From NCBI GenBank assembly GCA_014379805.1, contig JACMLB010000224.1:1-57487 (forward strand): 57,487 bases of DNA, given 5' to 3'. The position numbers and the translations under genes are program-made. Numbering within the stretch: the first letter of the stretch is position 1; each line of letters opens with the position of its first letter. The notes beneath the pieces were generated by a model. It was not told the DNA's origin and made no database searches. It saw only the letters and a program-made list of their open reading frames with translations. This document shows positions 6,259 to 18,459 of this stretch, piece by piece. This DNA is from Rhodospirillales bacterium. GTDB taxonomy: Bacteria > Pseudomonadota > Alphaproteobacteria > Rhodospirillales > Magnetospirillaceae.

Positions 6259-6590
6259 GGTGCTGATCCCCCCAATTCCCTGCGGCGGTCGGTGAAAATG
6301 CCGGACACGGTCAGCGCCAGATCGCGGCGCTTGGCCACCAGGGCGGCGATGTCGTCGGCGTAGCGTTTCTTGATGGCGTCGATCTGGGCCACGGTGGTGG
6401 CGTCCAGAACCTCGTTGGCGATGCGGGTGGCGATGGCCCAGCAATCGGCATCCACGTCCGGGCCAAAGCCGGCGGTGACGTGATGATAGGCGGCGCGGTC
6501 GGGGCCGCTGGCCATGTCCATGCCGACAATGGTGGGCTGTGCTGGCGGCGCGGCGGCGGCAAGCTGGAACAGGGGCGGGGCCTTAAGCAT
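6255..6590 (-). CDS. Small phage protein, unknown function
   Basis: 111 residues starting MLKAPPLFQLAAAAPPAQPT. The middle contains YHHVTAGFGPDVDADCWAIATRIANEVLDATTVAQIDAIKKRYADDI, a predicted helical region. Its start lies 8 bp inside the end of the primase-helicase gene and its end overlaps the XRE start. No family is recognised. Confidence 0.5.
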   Translation of the reverse strand: MLKAPPLFQLAAAAPPAQPTIVGMDMASGPDRAAYHHVTAGFGPDVDADCWAIATRIANEVLDATTVAQIDAIKKRYADDIAALVAKRRDLALTVSGIFTDRRRELGGSAP

Positions 6591-9270
6591 TGGCGCCTCC
6601 GTTCGGGTTGGCGAACACCCAGCACTTGATGGTCTTGTCGGTGAACTCGCCATCCAGGCCGCTGTTGACCGCCTTGTTGCCCTCGATCAGGGGGCGTGTG
6701 CGGGAGTCCGGGAACAGTTTGCGCAGTTCGTTCAGGTCCGGGATCTGCTGGCTCTGCCGCATGGCCTCGCGCTGGAAGTGGTTCAGGTTGATGGCGATGC
6801 GGCCCGGCTGGCGGGAATGGTCCAGCTTGTCCATGCCCAGGAAGTCCACCACGTCCCAGAATTGGGTGACCAGCTGGTGGTCGGCGGCGATCTTGCGTTG
6901 GCGATCCTTGGCGGCCTCGATCAGGAAGCGGTGCGCTTCGTCACGCCACGCATCGGGGAATTTCACCAACGTGGCCAGGGCATCGACCATGGCGCGGGCT
7001 TGGCCGTGGTTTTTCTGGATACGCACGGTCTTCAATTCGGGGATGGTGCTGTGCTGCGCCTCGTATTCGTCGGCCCGCTTCAGGATCAGCGGCACGATGT
7101 CCTTTTCCGCCGTGGTGGCGCGCAGCAGGAAGTGGCTCACTTTCTCCACCGGCATGCGGGCCAGGGTCATGGCCGCCGCCTTTCCCGCGTCGGAATGGTG
7201 CGCGGTGGTGAAGAACAGGTGGACGATGCGGCTCATGATGGCGTCCGACGATTCCACCGCAGCGTTCTGGCTGATGACGATGGAGCCCCGGAAAGCCGGT
7301 TCCTTGGTGTCGTTACCGCCGTTCTTCACCGCCGTATTGCGGGGGCTGCGCCCGTTGAACAGGGTCTTCAACTCGTCCCAGTTGAACTGTTTGCCGTGGG
7401 TGCCGTCGCGCTTCTCGCGGTCCGATTCGATCAGGCACACCGGCAGGTTCGCCACCTGGGTCATCATGCGGCCGCGCGCCGCTGGGGTGCTGGCGTTGGG
7501 GTCGAAGCCCTCGTAATTGGGGCGGCCCACCAGCTTCCACAGAAATTCGATCAGGGTGGATTTGCCGGAATTGTATTCGCCGACAATCTCCATGAAGAAC
7601 ATGGACTGGGCGGCCACGCGGATCTGTTCGGCAAACAGCGAGCCAAGCCAGAACGCCGCCGCGATGATCCCCTTGACGCCAAAGGCGGTGTACAGGTGGG
7701 TGATCCAGCTTTCGTCGTATTCGTCGGCCTTGCCGATGTGCAGATGCAGCGACCCGTTCAGGGATTTGATGCTCAAATTCCCGATCTCGAAGAAATCTTC
7801 CTCGTTCAGATCGTGGACCTGACCATTCGCCACCGCCTTGTCGCTGAAAATCCAGGCCTTGTGTTCGGCGGCATAGCCGATGAATTCCACCGTCTTGACC
7901 ACATTGATGTCGTCAAGGTAGCGCGCCACGATCCAGTTCAGATGTCCGGTGCCGCCAGTCCACAGGGCACCCGGCGCAATCTTCAGCAAGCGGTCCTTGA
8001 ACCCGGAACTGGTGCTGACCTCGGCTGAACGGAAGGTGGATTTTGTGGTGTGGCGGCCATGGGGGAACTCGACGCGGGCGTAGTACCAGCTTTCGTCGGC
8101 CAATTCGTCGCGCATGAAATACAGGAACCGCACGGCGCAATTGCTGATGCGCTGCACACTGGCCGACTTCATGGCCGCCTCGAATTCCGCCCCCCTGGGG
8201 TGGCTGACCAACCGGGGGTCGGTCTTGAATTCGGATAGGATTTTTTCGTACGTGGCGTAATCGCCGCTGAACCAATAGATCTGCTTGCGGTGCTCGACGG
8301 CGAAGGCGTTGCCGGATTTGCGCAGCCAGGTCAGCACACCCTTTTCCGTGGGTGTTTCCGCCAGCAGCAGATCGCCGTGGAACCGGTAGTTGTCGATGTC
8401 CTTGGGTTCCAGCTTCCCCGCCCGATAGGCGTCGTCCCAGTCCAGCTTTTCCTTGCCCTTGGCCGGAATCAGCGCGGCCCGGCACTCGAAGCCCAAGAGC
8501 TTGGCGGCGTCCACATGCTTGCGGATGTAGCGATGGCCAGCGGGGTCATTGTCCAGCGCCCACACCAGCACGACCTTCTTGGGGTCCAGGCTTTCCAGCA
8601 GCTTCGTGGGGAAATTGACGCACGATAGGGTGGCAGAGACCTGATAACCTTTCAGGGCCAAGCCGATGGCCTTCAGGCAGCCTTCCACCAGAAACAGTTC
8701 ACCCTCGGTCACCTTCTGGCCCGGTGGTTCCCACGACAGGCCGCGATGGTCGCTGACGAAGTTGGCCTTGCGCACCTCGATCTTACCGTCATCCTTTTTG
8801 ATGCGGACCGGGTCGATCAGGCGTTCCATCAGGATATTGCGCGAGCGGTCGACGTCGAACACCACCGTGGCGGTGCGCTTGGGCGAACCCTTGGAATGGA
8901 CGAATTCGCCCTGGCGATACCACCCTTTGATCTTCGCCACCGGAAAGCCGCGGGTGAACTGCAGGTACTTATCGGCGGTGCGGTTAGGGTCTTCCGTGGT
9001 CGCCGGATAGCGTTCGTTGAAGCGGCCGAAGGAATCGGGATAGAGGTTGCGCGCCGTGTCGGTCCAGCCGCAATTGTTCTCGCGCCCGCACTTCACCACC
9101 CAAGGCCCTTGGGCGTGGGTGTACAGCTCCATTTCCCCGCATTTCGGGCACTTGCCCCCGCGCAGCCAGCCGGCCCGCTCCTTGAAACCGTAGTCGCGCT
9201 TCAGGTTGGACAGCACCTCGCTCAGGGTGTCTTGGTCCATCTCGGTGCGTTGGCGGTTGATGGCGTTCAT
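6583..9270 (-). CDS. Phage DNA primase-helicase (zinc ribbon, toprim, P-loop)
   Basis: 895 residues, the main replication protein of the prophage. A zinc ribbon uses Cys 41, 44, 61 and 67 (CPKC...CGRENNC). A toprim-like domain follows (VEGCLKAIGLAL, then VLVWALDNDPAGHRYIRKH near 205-260), and a P-loop helicase has Walker A GEYNSGKST near residue 565. The order matches bifunctional phage primase-helicases. The ATG at 9270 overlaps the dcm stop (ATGA) and is preferred to the longer open frame. The last about 30 residues (NKAVNS...KCWVFAN) closely match the end of the antirepressor at 16413-17153. P2's rolling-circle protein A was not seen. Confidence 0.85.
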   Translation of the reverse strand: MNAINRQRTEMDQDTLSEVLSNLKRDYGFKERAGWLRGGKCPKCGEMELYTHAQGPWVVKCGRENNCGWTDTARNLYPDSFGRFNERYPATTEDPNRTADKYLQFTRGFPVAKIKGWYRQGEFVHSKGSPKRTATVVFDVDRSRNILMERLIDPVRIKKDDGKIEVRKANFVSDHRGLSWEPPGQKVTEGELFLVEGCLKAIGLALKGYQVSATLSCVNFPTKLLESLDPKKVVLVWALDNDPAGHRYIRKHVDAAKLLGFECRAALIPAKGKEKLDWDDAYRAGKLEPKDIDNYRFHGDLLLAETPTEKGVLTWLRKSGNAFAVEHRKQIYWFSGDYATYEKILSEFKTDPRLVSHPRGAEFEAAMKSASVQRISNCAVRFLYFMRDELADESWYYARVEFPHGRHTTKSTFRSAEVSTSSGFKDRLLKIAPGALWTGGTGHLNWIVARYLDDINVVKTVEFIGYAAEHKAWIFSDKAVANGQVHDLNEEDFFEIGNLSIKSLNGSLHLHIGKADEYDESWITHLYTAFGVKGIIAAAFWLGSLFAEQIRVAAQSMFFMEIVGEYNSGKSTLIEFLWKLVGRPNYEGFDPNASTPAARGRMMTQVANLPVCLIESDREKRDGTHGKQFNWDELKTLFNGRSPRNTAVKNGGNDTKEPAFRGSIVISQNAAVESSDAIMSRIVHLFFTTAHHSDAGKAAAMTLARMPVEKVSHFLLRATTAEKDIVPLILKRADEYEAQHSTIPELKTVRIQKNHGQARAMVDALATLVKFPDAWRDEAHRFLIEAAKDRQRKIAADHQLVTQFWDVVDFLGMDKLDHSRQPGRIAINLNHFQREAMRQSQQIPDLNELRKLFPDSRTRPLIEGNKAVNSGLDGEFTDKTIKCWVFANPNGGANA

Positions 9271-10226
9271 AGACGGCACTCCACCGCGAGAATGGCGCGC
9301 CCGATCAGTCGTGGAATGACAGGGACAACTGCGTCCCCGTAAGCGGCAACGCATTCGCGAGCCATCCCGGTGGGAATCCCATCATTGCCTCGACGATGGG
9401 CAGCAAGGCTGCTGAACCACGGATGGCTGAGGACGCCATCACCTCCCGAAGGGGGCGGGCATTCCCCGCCGTCGCGCAATCCGCCCAGCCGCCCCGATAG
9501 GCGTCGCTCTTGGTCGGTGTCGGCAGCAGTTTCGCCAATGCCGTCACCAGTCCGTCCCCGGAATTGGCTGAACATCCAGCGCGGTTGTAGTTCCCGCATT
9601 TTGTCGGGGTGGGCAGCAACGCCGCCTTCAAATTCCGTCCGGTCTTTTTCCCCGCACTGGACCATTCCGGGCCAACCCGCCCCTGTCTGGCCAGAGACTT
9701 GGTTGGCGTTGGCAACAATCCAGACCCGCTTTCTGCGGTGGGGTCCGCCGATGTCGTCAACACCCACCACAAACGGCCGTGCGGTGTAGCCAGTTTTTTC
9801 CAGCCCACCAAGGACCCGGTCAGAACCTTTACCTCGCAGGCGAGGGCTGTTCTCAAGGCAGACCCAACGGGGTCCGCGTCCACAGTGGACAAGCTCCCGC
9901 ACGATGCGGATGGCTTCGAAAAACAACCCGGATCGTGCGCCGTCAACTCCGGCACCGTTGGGATTGGCGGCGCTGATGTCCTGGCATGGGGGGCTTCCGA
10001 CGACGATGTCAGGGGCGCATCCATCATCGATGATCCGCTGGCCGGTAAGGGTGCGCACGTCGTCATACAGCTTCGCCTCCGGGAAATTCCGCCCGAACGC
10101 CGCCCGGCGCCACGGGTCAACCTCGCAGGCGGCGACGGTGGTAAACGGCCCGGCCTGGTGCAGGCCCAGCGACCAACCGCCGGCGGCACCGCAAAACAGG
10201 TCGAGCACGCGCAAGGGGGAGTTCAT
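9267..10226 (-). CDS. dcm: C5-cytosine DNA methyltransferase
   Basis: 319 residues. Motif I is VLDLFCGAAGGWSLGL (7-22), motif IV GSPPCQDIS with catalytic Cys 81, motif VI CLENSP (124-128; Ser replaces the usual Val of ENV), motif VIII GGPHRRKRVWIVA and motif X AAYGDAVVPVIPRLIGRAI. It would transfer a methyl group from SAM to cytosine, probably to protect phage DNA; no restriction partner is visible. The recognition region (about 185-270) is unusual: the +1 frame carries three LPTPTK repeats and MGFPPGW, typical of related phage methylases. It overlaps the primase start by 4 bp. Confidence 0.88.
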   Translation of the reverse strand: MNSPLRVLDLFCGAAGGWSLGLHQAGPFTTVAACEVDPWRRAAFGRNFPEAKLYDDVRTLTGQRIIDDGCAPDIVVGSPPCQDISAANPNGAGVDGARSGLFFEAIRIVRELVHCGRGPRWVCLENSPRLRGKGSDRVLGGLEKTGYTARPFVVGVDDIGGPHRRKRVWIVANANQVSGQTGAGWPGMVQCGEKDRTEFEGGVAAHPDKMRELQPRWMFSQFRGRTGDGIGETAADTDQERRLSGRLGGLRDGGECPPPSGGDGVLSHPWFSSLAAHRRGNDGIPTGMARECVAAYGDAVVPVIPRLIGRAILAVECRL

Positions 10227-10872: not shown

Positions 10873-11364
10873 TCAGCAGCTCCCCCGGAACTCGCACGGC
10901 ATCTGGAAGGTGCCGGACCACAGGCCGCGTTTGGCGGCCTTGGCTTCGGCCTGCTGGGGCAGGTAGGTTTTCTCGAATCGGGGGTCGACCACCGCCCAGC
11001 CCTGGGACACCATCCAGGCGCCGATGTCGGTGGCGCCGATGCGGCAGCGGCCCAGCGGGCGGCCATAGGAGTGCCGGCCATTCAGGTCACAGGTCACGCG
11101 CTTGTCCTTGACCAGATCGGTCAGGGCGGCGCTGGCCTCGATGCCGCAAGCCCATTCGATGCCGCCCCGGCGGCAGGTCTGTTCGTCTTCCGGGGTGTCG
11201 ATGCCCAGCATGCGGATCTTGGTCAGCGACAGCATGATGGTATCGCCGTCGATGACCAGGGCGTCGCCGGACAGGGTTTCAAGGCGCTGGCCCTTGGCAT
11301 CAGCAGGCACTGCCGGCGCCATCAGCGCCGCCACCACCAGGGCGATGGTTACGGGCCGCATCAC
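10873..11364 (-). CDS. Secreted thermonuclease (SNase-like)
   Basis: 163 residues: a signal peptide of about 23 residues, then an SNase-type OB-fold nuclease. The motifs VIDGDTIMLSLTKIRMLGIDTPEDEQTC and NGRHSYGRPLGRC supply the Arg...Glu...Arg active-site pattern, and WMVSQGWAVVDPRFEKTYLPQQAEAKAAKRGLW is the family's C-terminal helix region. It would cleave DNA or RNA in the periplasm or outside the cell. The C-terminus ends with a Cys pair (PCEFRGSC). The role in the phage is unknown; DNA scavenging or exclusion of incoming DNA are possibilities. Confidence 0.85.
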   Translation of the reverse strand: MMRPVTIALVVAALMAPAVPADAKGQRLETLSGDALVIDGDTIMLSLTKIRMLGIDTPEDEQTCRRGGIEWACGIEASAALTDLVKDKRVTCDLNGRHSYGRPLGRCRIGATDIGAWMVSQGWAVVDPRFEKTYLPQQAEAKAAKRGLWSGTFQMPCEFRGSC

Positions 11365-13785: not shown

Positions 13786-14064
13786 TCAGCGGCGGCGGTT
13801 GTCGATGCGGATGGCGGGGGCGCCTTCGACCTCGGGGGCGGTCCAGCGGTCAGGCCACAACTCCCACAGCGGCACTTCAAGGAACGCCGCAATGGCGCGC
13901 TCACCGGGGGTGTTGCGGGCGGCGACGGCGCGCTGGCAGGCGGCGGGATGCAGGTCGTTGTCCAGAGCCAACTGCTTCAGCGTCTTGCCTCGCATGGCGA
14001 CTTCGGCGCGGATTTTCGCGCGGTGCCATCCCTGGGGGGCGGTGTTGTCGGTGTGCTGCTGCAT
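13786..14064 (-). CDS. Ner-like HTH regulator (first early gene)
   Basis: 92 residues. QGWHRAKIRAEVAMRGKTLKQLALDNDLHPAACQRAVAARNTPGERAIAAFLEVPLWELWPDRW is the lambda-repressor-like HTH of the Mu Ner / Nlp (SfsB) family, with the characteristic P-x-E-x-x-I-A and WP-x-RW elements. Ner represses early and repressor promoters in Mu. It is divergent from the S24 repressor across a 167-bp switch region containing ATCTGGTT / AACCAGAT sites. The Met at 14064 is preferred because the longer frame would run into that region. Confidence 0.82.
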   Translation of the reverse strand: MQQHTDNTAPQGWHRAKIRAEVAMRGKTLKQLALDNDLHPAACQRAVAARNTPGERAIAAFLEVPLWELWPDRWTAPEVEGAPAIRIDNRRR

Positions 14065-14079
14065 TTGCCTGTGCGGCCT

Positions 14080-14117
14080 ATCTGGTTGCCGGTATAATTG
14101 GTCTCCACAAACCAGAT
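14080..14117. promoter_or_regulatory. Candidate repressor operators in the ner/repressor switch
   Basis: ATCTGGTT at 14080-14087 and its reverse complement AACCAGAT at 14110-14117 bracket a perfect TATAAT (14093-14098) on the + strand. The same arms occur as a closer inverted repeat at 15933-15954, ahead of the antirepressor block. This suggests a shared operator of the S24 repressor. No good -35 element is visible. Confidence 0.5.
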
Positions 14118-14231
14118 GGTGCTGCAAAAACGCGGCGGCTGCAATCGAAAAATCGCGCAATACGGGGTGGTTCGGTTGATGTTTGCAGCGCATAGCTGCG
14201 AAAAGCGAGCACTACCAATGGGTTATCTGCC

Positions 14232-15143
14232 GTGAGTGATCTATTTTCGGAACGGTTACGTTTGGCGCGAGAACGCCTCGGGGAATCCGTCACGGGTATC
14301 GCCAAGGAAAGCGGCGTCAATCGGGGGACGTGGCAGCGCTATGAGAGCGGCACTAACCGACCCGACGCGGATACGTTGGCGGTGCTGCACCGCCGTGGCA
14401 TCGACATCAACTGGCTGCTGACCGGCGAAGGCACCATGCTGCGCGGTGATGCGCCGCCGCTGTCCGGCACGGTGCCGGTGGTGGGGCTGGCGGAATGTGG
14501 CCTACGCGGCTGGTACCAGGAATCGCCCACCGGCCTGTATGCCTCGGCGCCGCCGGCCGTTGCCGCCGATCCGCGCGGGCTGGCGGTGGTCGCCATCGGT
14601 GATTCCATGCGCTCGGCTGGGATCAAGCCCGGCGATCTGGTGTTTTGCCAAAGCGCCGACGCCCTCAACCCCAGCGAACTGGTGCTGGTCGAACTGGTCG
14701 ACGGCACCATGTCGCTGAAGCAACTCAGCGGCATGACATCAAGTTGGGTGACGCTGCAGGGCTGGCTCGAGGCTGATGACGACGGCGTGCAGATGCCTTA
14801 TCAGGACGAGCGCCGCCGCGATCAGGTCAAGGCATTGCTGCGGGTGGCACTGGTACAGCCCGGGCTGGCGCAGCAGGTGACGCCGGGCAGTGCCGCCGGC
14901 GCCGGATATTGTCAGGATGACCGGCTGTATGAAATCGCCATCCGCACAACGCTGCACTGGTACGAAACGGCTGATGTGGGGGCGCCGTCGCCCGACGTGC
15001 TGGCCGCCATGATCTGCCGATCAGCGCGGCAGTTGCGCGCCCGCCAGGGTGACCAGCTAAAGACCGATGCCGAACTTGTCGGAGAGGTCCGCTATTCCTT
15101 GGACATAGCCCGCGATATGCTTACGGCATGGAAGCCTAAGTGA
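14232..15143 (+). CDS. S24-family prophage repressor (CI/C2-like)
   Basis: 303 residues. The N-terminal HTH is RLRLARERLGESVTGIAKESGVNRGTWQRYESGTNRPDADTLAVL (8-52). A C-terminal S24/LexA-type peptidase domain has Ser 125 (IGDSM) and a candidate Lys 163 (TMSLKQL), with a probable Cys89-Gly90 autocleavage site in AECGLRGW. This architecture gives SOS-inducible repressors that maintain lysogeny. A further about 90-residue helical extension (residues 215-303) is longer than usual and of unknown role. It is divergent from the Ner-like gene. Confidence 0.88.
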   Translation: MSDLFSERLRLARERLGESVTGIAKESGVNRGTWQRYESGTNRPDADTLAVLHRRGIDINWLLTGEGTMLRGDAPPLSGTVPVVGLAECGLRGWYQESPTGLYASAPPAVAADPRGLAVVAIGDSMRSAGIKPGDLVFCQSADALNPSELVLVELVDGTMSLKQLSGMTSSWVTLQGWLEADDDGVQMPYQDERRRDQVKALLRVALVQPGLAQQVTPGSAAGAGYCQDDRLYEIAIRTTLHWYETADVGAPSPDVLAAMICRSARQLRARQGDQLKTDAELVGEVRYSLDIARDMLTAWKPK

Positions 15144-15150
15144 TGTGCGG

Positions 15151-15864
15151 TTACAGCATCCAGTAAAGGACGGCGGCGCCGATGATCGCCCAAAGGATCA
15201 GGCCGCCCACGACATCCTGTTTGGTCGGTGGCTTCTTCCCTTGGGTCTCGGCCTTTGGCTTGAGCGCATCTTCTGCCGCCGTCAATTTGGCAAAGCTGCC
15301 GGTGGGTTTATCCCATTCCGGGCCGGGGAAGTGGTTCACCCATTTCCGCTCGGGCTCGTCATGCACGTCTGGTGGCGGCTTGCCAACATCCGGTAACTGG
15401 TCGGAGGCCTTTCGCTTCCTTGGTTTCTGGCTCGCATATTTGCCGCCGGTCGGGGCACTGGCGACCGTGGCGCTGGCCGGTTCCGGAACTGGCAAGGTGG
15501 TGGACTTCCGCTGCCTTTTCTTGGCCGGGGCGATGCCGAACGCCGCGAAGAACTCCTTCGCCGGCAAGACTTCGCCGTCCATATCCATAACGGAACTGAT
15601 GCGGTCGACCCGGAATGTCCGGCTCATGCGGCGTTTCCAGCAATAGCCCACGATAAGCGGGGCGTCGGCGTCAGTGTCAACATGGTGGATGCTGATCCAG
15701 CGCCTGGACAGGTCGCCCTCGGAATCCTTGTAGTCGATGCAGACGGCGTGTCCTTCAAGGTCGGATGGCTGCAACCCGCTGTCCCGGTTCAGGCCATCCA
15801 GGGTCAGCAGTTCGACCTTTCCCGCCTTCAGCGACTTGGCTAAGACTTCCCGTCCATCATCCAT
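15151..15864 (-). CDS. WYL-like domain protein with C-terminal membrane anchor
   Basis: 237 residues from the ATG at 15864, preceded by an AAGGG ribosome site about 8 nt away. Residues 38-105 (HAVCIDYKDSEGDLSRRWISIHHVDT...LIVGYCWKRRMSRTFRVDRISSVMDMDGE) have the WYL pattern of strand-rich segments ending in R-x-F-R-x-D-R-I. A Pro/Lys-rich linker follows and the last 19 residues (GGLILWAIIGAAVLYWML) are one membrane segment. WYL domains normally sense ligands in transcription factors; no HTH is present here. The gene is divergent from the C4/antirepressor block and converges on the repressor, 7 bp apart. Confidence 0.6.
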   Translation of the reverse strand: MDDGREVLAKSLKAGKVELLTLDGLNRDSGLQPSDLEGHAVCIDYKDSEGDLSRRWISIHHVDTDADAPLIVGYCWKRRMSRTFRVDRISSVMDMDGEVLPAKEFFAAFGIAPAKKRQRKSTTLPVPEPASATVASAPTGGKYASQKPRKRKASDQLPDVGKPPPDVHDEPERKWVNHFPGPEWDKPTGSFAKLTAAEDALKPKAETQGKKPPTKQDVVGGLILWAIIGAAVLYWML

Positions 15865-15932
15865 CGCATGCACCCTTGCTGCATATCCGCAATCAAAGGG
15901 CGTATCAAATCCTGCGCCACGGGGATAGCTGT

Positions 15933-15954
15933 TTCTGGTTGCTGGAAACCAGAT
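15933..15954. promoter_or_regulatory. Candidate repressor operator and promoter of the antirepressor block
   Basis: TTCTGGTT (15933-15940) and AACCAGAT (15947-15954) form an inverted repeat with a 6-nt spacer. The arms match those of the ner/repressor switch at 14080-14117. A weak promoter, TTGCTG (15939-15944) with 17-nt spacing to TAACGT (15962-15967), overlaps it and points towards the structured RNA. Repressor binding would shut off the antirepressor transcript. Confidence 0.5.
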
Positions 15955-16009
15955 AGAGGGGTAACGTCGAAATCGGAGCGTCGAAACTCCATGACAGAGA
16001 CGGTAGCCA

Positions 16010-16200
16010 CCCCGAAAGCATGTGGCTATTTTTGTGCCCGCCTCGCGGGTACGACCCGCTATGGCGGGAGGGCGGCGAATAAAATACCCGCAAGGGGAAT
16101 AAGCCCGCCTGTTCTCTGCAGGTTTCGAACCTCCCGCCGCCAGGGTGGGTCGTCGAAAGCCCTCCTTCGCGGCGCGTGCAACGCCGACAGAGAGGGCACT
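16010..16200 (+). ncRNA. Candidate C4-type antisense RNA leader
   Basis: A structured leader ahead of the small ORF and antirepressor. ACGACCC (16051-16057) pairs with GGGTCGT (16147-16153) and GGCGGGAGG (16063-16071) with CCTCCCGCC (16130-16138), closing a long arm. A further GCCCTC (16159-16164) is complementary to GAGGGC (16193-16198) at the ribosome site of the next ORF. In phages P1, P7 and P4 a C4 RNA lies directly upstream of icd-ant and blocks their translation by antisense pairing. The gene order and the apparent RBS complement match; sequence-model identity is not verified. Confidence 0.55.
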
Positions 16201-16203
16201 TTC

Positions 16204-16416
16204 ATGACCACTCCGATTCCCCATCCCATCCCCACGGCCATAGCCGCCATTGACCGCGCGGCCACCAGCCTGCAAGCCGCCATCCGCATCGCCGACGACA
16301 TGAACCGATTGCAGGAATCCCTAGCCCTGCTCATGGTTTCCGGGGAAATCAGCCATGCGGTTGATACCCTGCGCCAGTGCGGACAGGCGCTCGATCAGTC
16401 CGGGGGGATGCAATGA
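16204..16416 (+). CDS. Small ORF in the icd position of an immI-like operon
   Basis: 70 residues starting MTTPIPHPIPTAIAAIDRAATSLQ, preceded by GAGAGGG about 7 nt upstream. It is helical and without a recognised family. In the P1 immI operon the matching position is held by icd, a cell-division inhibitor; here only position is comparable. The frame stays open upstream to an ATG at 15991, which would give a 141-residue protein translated through the structured RNA (CGYFCARLAGTTRYGG...), but the good RBS favours 16204. It overlaps the antirepressor ATG (ATGA). Confidence 0.5.
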   Translation: MTTPIPHPIPTAIAAIDRAATSLQAAIRIADDMNRLQESLALLMVSGEISHAVDTLRQCGQALDQSGGMQ

Positions 16417-17153
16417 ACGACGTAACACCCTTTGTCTTCGACGGGATTAGCGTTGTCCGCACCGTTTGGCAGGATGCTGAACCATGGTTCGTCGGAGCGG
16501 ACGTATGTCGGATACTGGAAATCAAGGATCAGAAGCAGGCCCTTGGGCGGTTGGAAGAAGACGAAAGGGGGGGGTGCGGCATACCCACCCCTGGCGGTGT
16601 CCAGGAAATGATCATCGTATCTGAACCGGGCCTGTATCGACTGATCTTCCGAAGTAATAAACCGGTTGCTGAACGGTTCAAGCGGTGGCTGGCCCATGAG
16701 GTCATCCCCACCATCCGCAAGACCGGCGGCTATGGACTACGGCGGCTTGATATCGCCGGTCATCGCCACGCTGTTTTTCTAATGGAGCGTCTCAAGAAGG
16801 AGTCCTGCCCGACCGTCAGGGACTCGCTGCATCGCCTGCTCGCGCAGACCATGGGCGCTTTGGGTCAGGATACCCCGCCGCTGGAAGCCATCGCCCCCCC
16901 GCGCCCGCCCGATATCCTGGCGGCGTTCTGGCGGGAGGTGGCCGAATTGCAAGAGAAAGGGATCGCCATCAACCACGCCTATGCCGACGATTTGCTGTCC
17001 ATCCGGCTGGTGGAACTGCGCAGGCACCTGATCCGGCCCATCACGGGTGAATTGCGCCGGGCGTTGAAGGCCGATCCTCGCTTCGTCGCCAACAAGACGG
17101 TGAACAGCGCCATCACCGGCGGCGCGGTTAAGTGCTGGGTGTTCGCTCGCTAA
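16413..17153 (+). CDS. Bro-N domain antirepressor
   Basis: 246 residues. The N-terminal Bro-N domain is clear: FDGISVVRTVWQDAEPWFVGADVCRILEIKDQKQALGRL, then MIIVSEPGLYRLIFRSNKPVAERFKRWLAHEVIPTIRKTGGY (about 7-110). Phage antirepressors of this type inactivate the lysogeny repressor and trigger lytic growth. The C-terminal part (VANKTVNSAITGGAVKCWVFAR) matches the end of the primase-helicase of the same prophage. It is translationally coupled to the upstream small ORF and converges on gpD across the repeat array at 17262-17433. Confidence 0.82.
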   Translation: MNDVTPFVFDGISVVRTVWQDAEPWFVGADVCRILEIKDQKQALGRLEEDERGGCGIPTPGGVQEMIIVSEPGLYRLIFRSNKPVAERFKRWLAHEVIPTIRKTGGYGLRRLDIAGHRHAVFLMERLKKESCPTVRDSLHRLLAQTMGALGQDTPPLEAIAPPRPPDILAAFWREVAELQEKGIAINHAYADDLLSIRLVELRRHLIRPITGELRRALKADPRFVANKTVNSAITGGAVKCWVFAR

Positions 17154-17261
17154 TCTTCGCCCACAATCTCAGTGGCCTCGACGGCGGTAAGGAGTCGTCA
17201 TTACGGCGACACCTTCAGCCGGCGGGTTACAGGACGCGACGATGGGACACCTCCATGCCCA

Positions 17262-17347
17262 AGCGCGGTGCCGCACCGCGCTAAATGCCGTTTAGCGCGG
17301 TGCGGCACCGCGCTAAAACCCGTCTAAGCGCGGTACGGCACCGCGCT
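17262..17347. repeat. Three tandem palindromes (GCGCGGTGC / GCACCGCGC)
   Basis: Palindromes at 17262-17282 (arms of 10, perfect), 17291-17317 (arms of 13, perfect, TTTAGCGCGGTGC / GCACCGCGCTAAA) and 17327-17347 (arms of 10 with one mismatch). The repeat period is about 33 bp. Each would form a very stable hairpin on either strand. They lie in the gap between convergent transcripts, so a terminator or REP-like role is possible. Confidence 0.85.
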
Positions 17348-17385
17348 AAACGGCACTCACTTGGCCCGCTGGTCGTGGCTGAGGA

Positions 17386-17440
17386 GAATTCGCGCCACGG
17401 CGGCGCGAATTCGCCCCACGGCGTGGCGAATTCGCGTCGT
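17386..17440. repeat. 2.5 tandem 21-bp repeats with GAATTCGC
   Basis: GAATTCGC recurs at 17386, 17407 and 17428, exactly 21 bp apart, followed in the first two units by SCCACGGCG. The units also form hairpins: GAATTCGCGCC (17386-17396) pairs perfectly with GGCGCGAATTC (17402-17412) around the loop ACGGC. Spacing of two helical turns is typical of iterons or multi-site operators. Confidence 0.8.
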
Positions 17441-17472
17441 GGTGCAGGATGGGTTTCTTTCCACCGTGGAAA

Positions 17473-18459
17473 TTAATCCGTCATGACAATCTCGGTAGCC
17501 TCGATCGACGTGGTGAAGCCGCTGCCGTCCATGGTGTGCGTCACCGTGCCGGTCAGCCAGGATATGGCCGTGATCTCGGACCGCCACCCCGACAACGACA
17601 AGGGCGAGCTGGCGCACACCGCCGCATTGCCCATGGACAGGGTGACGCTGAAGGTGTGGGCCTTGGACATCTGGCGGCTCCATGCAGCATCGGCGGCGGC
17701 TTTGGCCTCGGCTTGGTTGGGATAGGTGCGCTTCATGGTCTTGACCGATCCTTCGGTTCCGGCCAAGGCGAAACAGGTGGCGCCGGTCTTCAGGTCGATC
17801 CATTTGGCTTGCATGCCGGTCTGGCTACCGTCGCGGTCGGTGGCGCGAAAGGAATGGGTGTCGCCCTGTTTGCGGTCGATCTGCACCGCGTCCAGCAGGC
17901 CGCCGCCCGCCGTCAGACCGCGCCCCCAGGGAACGAACACCAGCCGGCCCGATTTGATGGTGGACACCGCGCCGTAATCCTTGCCCAGGCGGGTGACAAG
18001 ATTGGCGTCCGATTCGCTGGTCTGGGACAGGTGGGTGATGGCGATGCCGGCCAGATCCGGGTGCACCGCCAGGGTCAGGCCATTGCGGGCCGCCACACTG
18101 GTCAGGATCTCGCCCAGGGTGGTGCTGTTATAGCTGGCCTCGCGGCTTTGCTTCAGGCTGTCGCGGAAGTCGGCGCTGCGGGCAACGATGACGATGGTGT
18201 CGACCGGGCCGTCTTCGCCCACCTCGTCCACCACAAAGGTGCCTTTGTCCACCAGCCCATGGTCCCGCCAGCCCAGCGCCACCGACAGGGTGGCGCCGGT
18301 GCGCGGCAGGGCGAACGATCCGGTGGGGTCCGAGATGCTGATCTCCACCTGATCGGCTTCCATGCCGTCCTTGTCGGTCAGGCGCAGCGAGACAAGGTTT
18401 TTGGCGATGTGGGCGCCGATGGGAATGCCGTCGGCCAGAATGCGAAATTCCGGGGTCAT
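17473..18459 (-). CDS. P2 gpD-like tail protein
   Basis: 328 residues. The opening MTPEFRILADGIPIGAHIAKNLVSLRLTDKDGMEADQVEISISDP is the usual start of late control gene D proteins, a tail hub/baseplate component between tape measure and tip. It is the last gene of the leftward late operon, overlapping gpU by 4 bp (ATGA). The length is close to P2 gpD. Confidence 0.9.
   Translation of the reverse strand: MTPEFRILADGIPIGAHIAKNLVSLRLTDKDGMEADQVEISISDPTGSFALPRTGATLSVALGWRDHGLVDKGTFVVDEVGEDGPVDTIVIVARSADFRDSLKQSREASYNSTTLGEILTSVAARNGLTLAVHPDLAGIAITHLSQTSESDANLVTRLGKDYGAVSTIKSGRLVFVPWGRGLTAGGGLLDAVQIDRKQGDTHSFRATDRDGSQTGMQAKWIDLKTGATCFALAGTEGSVKTMKRTYPNQAEAKAAADAAWSRQMSKAHTFSVTLSMGNAAVCASSPLSLSGWRSEITAISWLTGTVTHTMDGSGFTTSIEATEIVMTD

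Follow-up and report, generated by a model that had tools for sequence, protein, structure and literature searches.

Is the structured RNA encoded just upstream of an antirepressor gene in a Rhodospirillales prophage a C4 antisense RNA, or does a different RNA family hold that position? We addressed this question in a stretch of 57,487 nucleotides (nt) from a Rhodospirillales bacterium (assembly GCA_014379805.1, contig JACMLB010000224.1, positions 1 to 57,487), referred to here as the window. An initial annotation, made from the sequence alone, had read positions 15991-17153 as an immI-like unit consisting of a C4 antisense RNA, a small open reading frame (ORF) and an antirepressor (Ant) gene. 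Our analysis indicates that the unit is very probably a C4-like antisense switch controlling an antirepressor operon, with an RNA of the sRNA-Xcc1 family that is likely processed by RNase P. There is strong support for the core of the earlier proposal, a C4-like antisense unit that precedes a small ORF and an antirepressor gene; the RNA family is sRNA-Xcc1 and not C4.

At Rfam cut-offs the window contains two matches only, a transfer RNA (tRNA) and sRNA-Xcc1 (RF02221), the latter at 16063-16146 on the plus strand with 70.6 bits against a gathering score of 53, an expectation value (E) of 7.4e-11 over the window and the whole model covered (1-87 of 87). The C4 covariance model (RF01695), expected to fit here by the initial annotation, gives no match in 15900-16450 at E up to 5 and none in the source genome at E 0.001 (68 of 1693 first-look candidates scored), and these absent matches rule out membership of Rfam C4. 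In the source genome, which is 79% complete, the window copy is the only RF02221 match found. With the source genome counted in each case, the model matches in 8 of 61 genomes from the host and related bacteria (3 above cut-off) and in 47 of 385 across the class (8 above cut-off), these whole-genome searches having scored only part of the first-look candidates. The uncultured Pseudovibrio genome of locus L165 carries 15 family matches, 4 of them above cut-off. Reportedly, going by the title of a 2011 paper by Chen, sRNA-Xcc1 is integron-encoded and controlled by HrpG/HrpX. It has been reported as a Xanthomonas campestris small RNA with predicted pathogenesis targets, and the portion of that text examined describes no role for it before antirepressors (PMC2996969). 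In E. coli O157, the cited passage gives many RNA-seq reads and little ribosome coverage for sRNA-Xcc1 (PMC5331693), and sRNA-Xcc1 and C4 antisense RNA are both listed in Xylella, with no link between them made in the passage cited (PMC12189769). A link of sRNA-Xcc1 to C4-type control or to antirepressors was not found in the literature searched, a search that left most subscription journals outside.

The anatomy of the window RNA is that of an antisense RNA with two contact segments. The region 15980-16215 folds at −104.3 kcal/mol (z-score −3.71), and none of 200 shuffled sequences is equally stable. The long-range stem seen in the initial annotation is P1, where 16063-16071 pairs with 16130-16138, extended by an imperfect outer repeat (16051-16067/16137-16153). 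Hairpin P3 (16107-16123) holds in its loop region the segment b′ (TCTCTG, 16113-16118), and the junction that follows (16123-16129) holds a′ (TTTCGA, 16123-16128). Each segment has a complementary target on either side of the RNA, all on the plus strand. Downstream, in the leader of the messenger RNA (mRNA), lie a2 (GTCGAAA, 16152-16158) and b2 (GACAGAGA, 16186-16193), the latter overlapping the Shine-Dalgarno sequence of the small ORF; upstream lie a1 (GTCGAAA at 15980), presented by a leader hairpin GGAG-CGTCGAAA-CTCC (15975-15990) that resembles hairpins in relatives, and b1 (GACAGAGA, 15993-16000), a copy of the ribosome-site sequence. The window has two features of a C4-type unit: complementarity of a′ and b′ to the leader and ribosome site in the antirepressor operon, and a second copy of the targets upstream of the RNA (a1 at 15980, b1 at 15993). 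The loop-junction region is predicted to form a duplex of −21.0 kcal/mol with the leader upstream of the RNA and one of −18.1 kcal/mol, which includes a long interior loop, with the leader downstream. When segments slightly longer than a′ and b′ were tested, 23 of 20,000 shuffled leader pairs matched both of them over at least 6 nt on either side, each of the four matches being common in shuffles when taken singly (12-26%).

The complementarity recurs and co-varies across the family. Members were collected from viral contigs with the conserved core AATACCCGNAAGGGGAAT as the pattern, and from named genomes with a longer form of it. Fifty viral records, chosen from at least 120 pattern loci, were checked along with the window against the C4, IsrK and RF02221 models; all 50 match RF02221, 45 of them above cut-off, and the presence of RF02221 in 51 of 51 records follows from the way they were chosen and says nothing about frequency. 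With members laid side by side, the b′ loop looked complementary to the Shine-Dalgarno sequence of the next ORF and a′ to a stretch slightly upstream of it. We used a swap test, in which the longest exact match of each RNA to its own leader is set against its longest matches to the leaders of the other members; the stretch tested runs from the P3 loop into the beginning of the junction, and some matches involve a′ rather than b′. Clustering of 200 units at 85% gave 105 clusters, including the window, of which 88 had an ATG with a Shine-Dalgarno-like site 60-199 nt downstream and 17 were dropped; the pattern hits L023 and L066 look like chance matches and were left in the set. The antisense stretch matches its own ribosome-site region over at least 7 nt in 72 of these 88 clusters, compared with 7.7% of swapped pairs (0 of 20,000 permutations equalled the observed sum). 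A match of that length to the leader upstream of the same RNA is present in 91 of 104, compared with 20.6% (again 0 of 20,000). The stretch with the downstream match also matched upstream in 71 of 80 units, against 20.3 expected by swapping. Swapped pairs probably overstate chance, because related sequences share loops.

Two further sets gave the same picture. A first set of 70 clusters, reduced to 56 by dropping 14 (2 with short DNA, 12 with no ORF by the rule), showed a ribosome-site match of at least 7 nt in 82% versus 7.5% swapped, with the match ending 8-11 nt ahead of the start codon in 36 of the 56 clusters; the junction segment matched over at least 6 nt in 23 of them, versus 7.3% swapped. 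Loci found by covariance model were tested without any choice of ORF (37 of 40 hits used, three near-duplicates dropped; the window, L002, L203 and L205 shared with the first set), and matched upstream in 33 of 37 (swapped 18.3%) and downstream in 18 of 37 (swapped 10.4%), with 0 of 20,000 permutations in both directions. RNAalifold on a MAFFT alignment (A2) of 71 of the 87 eligible RNAs recovered the core hairpin and P3 and did not recover P1; model R1, made from the MAFFT alignment, contains 8 pairs, so that sequence rather than structure largely determines what it finds.

The ends of the RNA carry a signature of RNase P processing. In the window, the 3′ strand of P1 and the GCCA that follows it (together 16130-16142, plus strand) form the kind of tRNA-like end that an RNase P substrate would have, and a T stands before G16063. 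Among the 95 of 105 clusters with a P1 of at least 7 base pairs (10 dropped), RCC directly follows P1 in 69, compared with 1.05% at control positions farther downstream, and a T (U at −1) precedes P1 in 80. C4 RNA is processed by RNase P, according to the cited passage (PMC5320573), and the window RNA is, from its sequence signature, probably trimmed by the same enzyme.

Downstream, the unit leads into an antirepressor operon. The small ORF of 70 amino acids (aa) (16204-16416, plus strand) begins with ATG behind a Shine-Dalgarno-like AGAGGG, occupies the icd/orf45 position and belongs to no known family. It overlaps the Bro-N antirepressor gene (16413-17153, plus strand; Pfam Bro-N 2.9e-23, phrog_130 anti-repressor 4.7e-46) by 4 nt (16413-16416), as in a c4-icd-ant operon, and the order of RNA, small ORF and ant given in the initial annotation is real. 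The 70-aa ORF had no family or tblastn match, P1 icd not being compared directly, and blastp against six other small ORFs was empty. Linkage to antirepressors extends to the family: Pfam hits in the 88 first downstream ORFs were Bro-N (22), P22_AR_N (14), KilA-N (14), Phage_pRha (10) and AntA (7), a sum of 67 antirepressor-domain hits that equals 67 ORFs only if none carries two. A small ORF comes first, as in the window, in L036, L081 (with a 13-nt overlap) and L101, before proteins that are P22_AR-like by eye. Among 32 viral relatives of the window Ant, the RNA model finds an RNA 59-290 nt upstream in four (L258, L260, L264 and L267). The L267 RNA scores 60.4 bits and is followed by an ORF of 45 aa whose overlap with Ant is 4 nt, just as in the window; in L260 a 75-aa ORF ends just before Ant, and in L258 and L264 Ant follows the RNA directly.

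Other genes are found behind family members as well. In L002 and L009, from the bacterial family of the window, the RNA lies before a small ORF, and the next ORF of L002 resembles by eye the start of the Toprim/primase-like protein of the window (6583-9354, minus strand); the module may guard a replication gene too, as in P4. In L178, an alphaproteobacterial metagenome-assembled genome, a family member stands directly before a helix-turn-helix (HTH) repressor-like ORF, with a downstream match of only 5 nt.

In Xanthomonas the sRNA-Xcc1 family is present in all 31 genomes searched. Founder-like copies L226 and L228 (92 bits, 88 nt) precede a SymE-like ORF (SymE_toxin 3.8e-14 in L226). The L226 loop CTTCGAG matches CTCGAAG at the symE ribosome site and again upstream, and a CTCGAAG-type ribosome-site match is also visible in L228. 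Passages from a description of Xanthomonas cassettes state that sRNA-Xcc1 upstream of symE is the most widespread of them, and that its position directly upstream of symE suggests a divergent regulatory mechanism (PMC12444791). The upstream match is present in 30 of 30 Xanthomonas units, where swapped pairs reach 61% and one place is included twice (L142 and L168). Apart from the symE copies, most Xanthomonas members examined stand before small ORFs and have no convincing match downstream; many chromosomal copies of this kind (L230-L252) keep the upstream match and have mostly lost the downstream one. Pairing at the ribosome site thus appears, from these sequences, to be common across the family and not universal.

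The leader upstream of the RNA has the parts needed for a short transcript of its own. A candidate promoter, TTGCTG-17 nt-TAACGT (15939-15967, plus strand), was read by eye 7 nt before the a1 hairpin, and relatives (52 units) have T-rich −35-like positions about 36 nt before that hairpin, which faintly hints at a promoter here. The presumed −35 is covered by a perfect palindrome, TCTGGTT-6-AACCAGA (15934-15953), the sole perfect match in the window and a possible operator; four more window sites have 3 mismatches, with about one match expected by chance. A 3-mismatch copy at 14097-14116 lies near the ner/repressor control region, and the two palindromes are possibly a shared operator. Farther along the leader, a terminator-like hairpin with a T-run (16002-16034, plus strand), identified by fold and hairpin scan, presumably ends a short leader RNA of the IsrK/seqA kind; its loop is 11 nt, and a stricter terminator scan with loops up to 8 nt reports none. 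Terminator-like hairpins at most 160 nt before the RNA occur in 50 of 104 members, and 43 of these 50 end 16-91 nt before the RNA. Shuffled sequence would be expected to give 2.6 such hairpins; on the opposite strand 1 of 104 members has one, and 62 of 1050 random positions do. In many members the terminator-like hairpin is preceded by a small hairpin with target a in its loop, after which comes a copy of target b. Membership of the leader in the IsrK family was considered and rejected, the IsrK model (RF01394) giving no match in 15900-16450 at E up to 5 and none in the source genome at E 0.1 (73 of 1223 candidates scored).

The mRNA leader also folds upon its own ribosome site. A cis hairpin at 16154-16203 (plus strand), formed by GAAAGCCCTC with GAGGGC..TTTC, is supported by the fold and by the leaders of relatives and would hide this site. 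The initial annotation had correctly seen that GCCCTC (16159-16164) is complementary to the downstream ribosome-site stretch, the partner GAGGGC starting at 16192, one base ahead of the position first given; its reading as an antisense contact is rejected, since the fold places GCCCTC/GAGGGC in a cis hairpin of the mRNA leader. The hairpin has −30.7 kcal/mol in the window, and hand-picked leaders of this type, from ten alphaproteobacterial genomes (window included) and one viral sequence, fold at −27.5 to −36.0 kcal/mol in 11 of 11 cases. Swapping the hairpin arms among these 11 leaders gave the same mean for own and swapped pairs (16.3 and 16.3), a comparison uninformative about covariation.

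Taken as a mechanism, these parts would work as follows. A promoter near 15939-15967 would start a leader carrying a1 and b1, and transcripts meeting the terminator-like hairpin would end as a short IsrK/seqA-like RNA. Read-through transcripts would carry the 84-nt sRNA-Xcc1-family RNA, probably trimmed by RNase P, whose b′ loop and a′ junction would pair with b2 and a2, in cis or in trans. This pairing would block translation of the 70-aa ORF and, because the two genes overlap by 4 nt, that of the antirepressor as well. The antisense RNA could also pair with a1 and b1, which would either feed back on the leader or allow the short leader RNA to titrate the antisense RNA and release the operon. 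Release from the block would let Ant inactivate the S24-type repressor, leading to prophage induction. We judge it most likely that the antisense RNA represses the small ORF and Ant, to whatever extent through translation, termination or titration by the leader RNA.

It is possible, and we keep it as a tentative alternative, that the same antisense RNA acts mainly through early transcription end, like P4 CI via seqA/seqC, with a1/b1 pairing aiding the terminator at 16002-16034 or stopping elongation before the ORF. The upstream target is indeed the more constant one (91/104, 33/37 and, at the high swapped level of Xanthomonas, 30/30), terminator-like hairpins recur in the family, and P4 provides a precedent in the passage cited (PMC4825925). 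The position of the downstream match before the start codon in 36 of the 56 clusters instead fits a translational block, and the two modes are not mutually exclusive. Rather unlikely is a scheme in which the short leader RNA is an activator like IsrK of Gifsy-1, binding the a′/b′ part of the long transcript and freeing the ribosome site, so that the unit would be off by default and switched on in trans. The order of parts is the same as in isrK-STnc1160-orf45-anrP, a hairpin covers the ribosome site, and the cited text sets out the IsrK mechanism (PMC4825925); the absence of an IsrK-model match in the leader and in the source genome, at the limits given above, speaks against it.

The remaining alternatives deny the antisense RNA its local role. 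That it is a stand-alone, trans-acting host small RNA with the antirepressor as a mere neighbour agrees with the family description in the portion of text cited (PMC2996969) and with the many Xanthomonas copies that have no convincing downstream match; family-wide matches to the RNA's own leader and own ribosome site, the antirepressor linkage and the match of founder-like Xanthomonas copies to the symE ribosome site make this highly improbable. Equally hard to credit is the GCCCTC/GAGGGC cis hairpin as the only regulator, with the upstream RNA incidental: the stability of the leader fold (−30.7 kcal/mol) and similar folds in all 11 picked leaders favour it, but many relatives outside this group are, by eye, devoid of the long hairpin, and in them the antisense matches persist.

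Several observations weigh against the reading of the unit as a C4-like antisense switch. The window's own antisense matches are short, 6 nt exact, or 7 nt for b2 with one G-U pair, and the expression, processing and pairing of this copy are predicted from sequence. A consensus sigma-70 scan of 15700-17500 found no promoter. The downstream match is shorter than 7 nt in 16 of 88 clusters and in 19 of 37 loci of the covariance-model set, and in Xanthomonas it reaches at least 7 nt in 9 of 30 units (swapped 17.9%), three of these being symE copies. On the protein side, 28 of the 32 relatives of the window Ant show no RNA in the DNA examined, and three of the four with an RNA score only 18.9-28.5 bits. 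Relatives of the 70-aa ORF were not found in viral contigs or phage records, so the case for its being a real gene comes from its Shine-Dalgarno sequence, position and overlap.

The antisense switch, if correct, has consequences beyond this prophage. The data suggest that much of the sRNA-Xcc1 family works as an antirepressor-guarding antisense RNA. We lean towards the wider view that acting as a host virulence RNA is not the main role of sRNA-Xcc1, which would rather be a mobile antisense cassette, composed of a leader with its own target copy, a terminator, the antisense RNA and a target on the ribosome site of the next gene. Such a cassette would guard phage antirepressors and would also have been placed, with matching targets, before the symE toxin in Xanthomonas, before a small ORF ahead of a primase-like gene in relatives of the host, and before chromosomal small ORFs of Xanthomonas where mainly the upstream target remains. 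An RNA discussed, in the papers examined, mainly as a possible virulence RNA would thereby gain a specific and testable mechanism, its predicted target in most clusters examined being the adjacent gene, which also counsels caution in genome-wide target prediction with such RNAs. C4-type immunity would be extended to RNAs that C4 searches miss, and the position of sRNA-Xcc1 upstream of symE in Xanthomonas integron cassettes would receive a possible explanation.

The unit sits in a P2-type prophage, as the initial annotation had stated; Pfam recognises Ogr/Delta zinc finger (Ogr_Delta 1.5e-13), tail sheath (Phage_sheath), tail tube (Phage_tube) and GPD hub (Phage_GPD) proteins in the window. The RNA, 70-aa ORF and Bro-N gene are on the plus strand, flanked by a minus-strand WYL-domain gene and tail genes. 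The S24-type repressor (14232-15143, plus strand; Pfam HTH_31 and Peptidase_S24) and an HTH_35 (Ner-like) protein (13786-14193, minus strand) also lie near the RNA-ant unit, as had been noted. The repressor is the probable target on which Ant would act, and together the S24 repressor, the Ner-like protein and the RNA unit may represent three working immunity systems. Also in the prophage region, on the minus strand, are a C-5 cytosine methylase (9270-10226) and a staphylococcal-nuclease-like protein (10876-11364). A G+C-rich palindromic repeat cluster of GCGCGGTGCGGCACCGCGCTAAA and GAATTCGC types occupies 17260-17440, between ant and a tail gene. Ant and the Toprim protein resemble each other at their C-terminal ends (31% over 72 aa), both ending in KCWVFA, with an E of 2e-5 that is valid for a single pairwise comparison.

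How does this unit compare with systems already studied? Details of P1/P7 C4, P4 CI and IsrK that go beyond the cited passages are given as general background. With C4 of P1/P7 (RF01695; c4-icd-ant) the window shares an RNA of similar length with P1, P2 and P3, and a′/b′ segments directed against the leader and the ribosome site of an ORF in an antirepressor operon, whereas the conserved sequence is another and the C4 model has no match in the window. In the record check, C4 matches occur in 6 of 51 records, at coordinates away from the sRNA-Xcc1 sites. When C4 loci were put through the same swap test, 8 of 8 had matches of 7-10 nt upstream as well as downstream, where swapped pairs averaged 6.0. 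Of the 8 C4 matches, 6 have an IsrK match just upstream, in 4 of these 6 scoring under the IsrK cut-off; with E relaxed to 0.1, the IsrK model also finds matches in 8 of 14 control genomes. The Gifsy-1 unit of Salmonella, isrK-STnc1160-orf45-anrP, appears to be the closest studied system known to us. According to the cited passages, a terminator marks the end of IsrK, transcripts that read through supply a stable RNA and the mRNA, orf45 is translationally coupled to the antirepressor, and IsrK was likened by its authors to seqA of P4 (PMC4825925). The window has the same order of parts, comprising a leader with a terminator-like hairpin, a small RNA, a small ORF and an antirepressor, the likeness being one of order and not of protein comparison; it differs in having no IsrK-model match and an extra hairpin at the ribosome site. 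P4 CI RNA pairs with seqA and seqC, ending transcription, in the same source passages (PMC4825925). There, as in the window, the antisense RNA lies between two target copies, but P4 controls replication genes by premature termination, while the downstream target in the window is on the ribosome site. Finally, sRNA-Xcc1 of Xanthomonas campestris belongs to the same Rfam family, of which the window copy is a member above cut-off, and whereas it has been described as a small RNA of that species with predicted pathogenesis targets, the window copy resides in a prophage.

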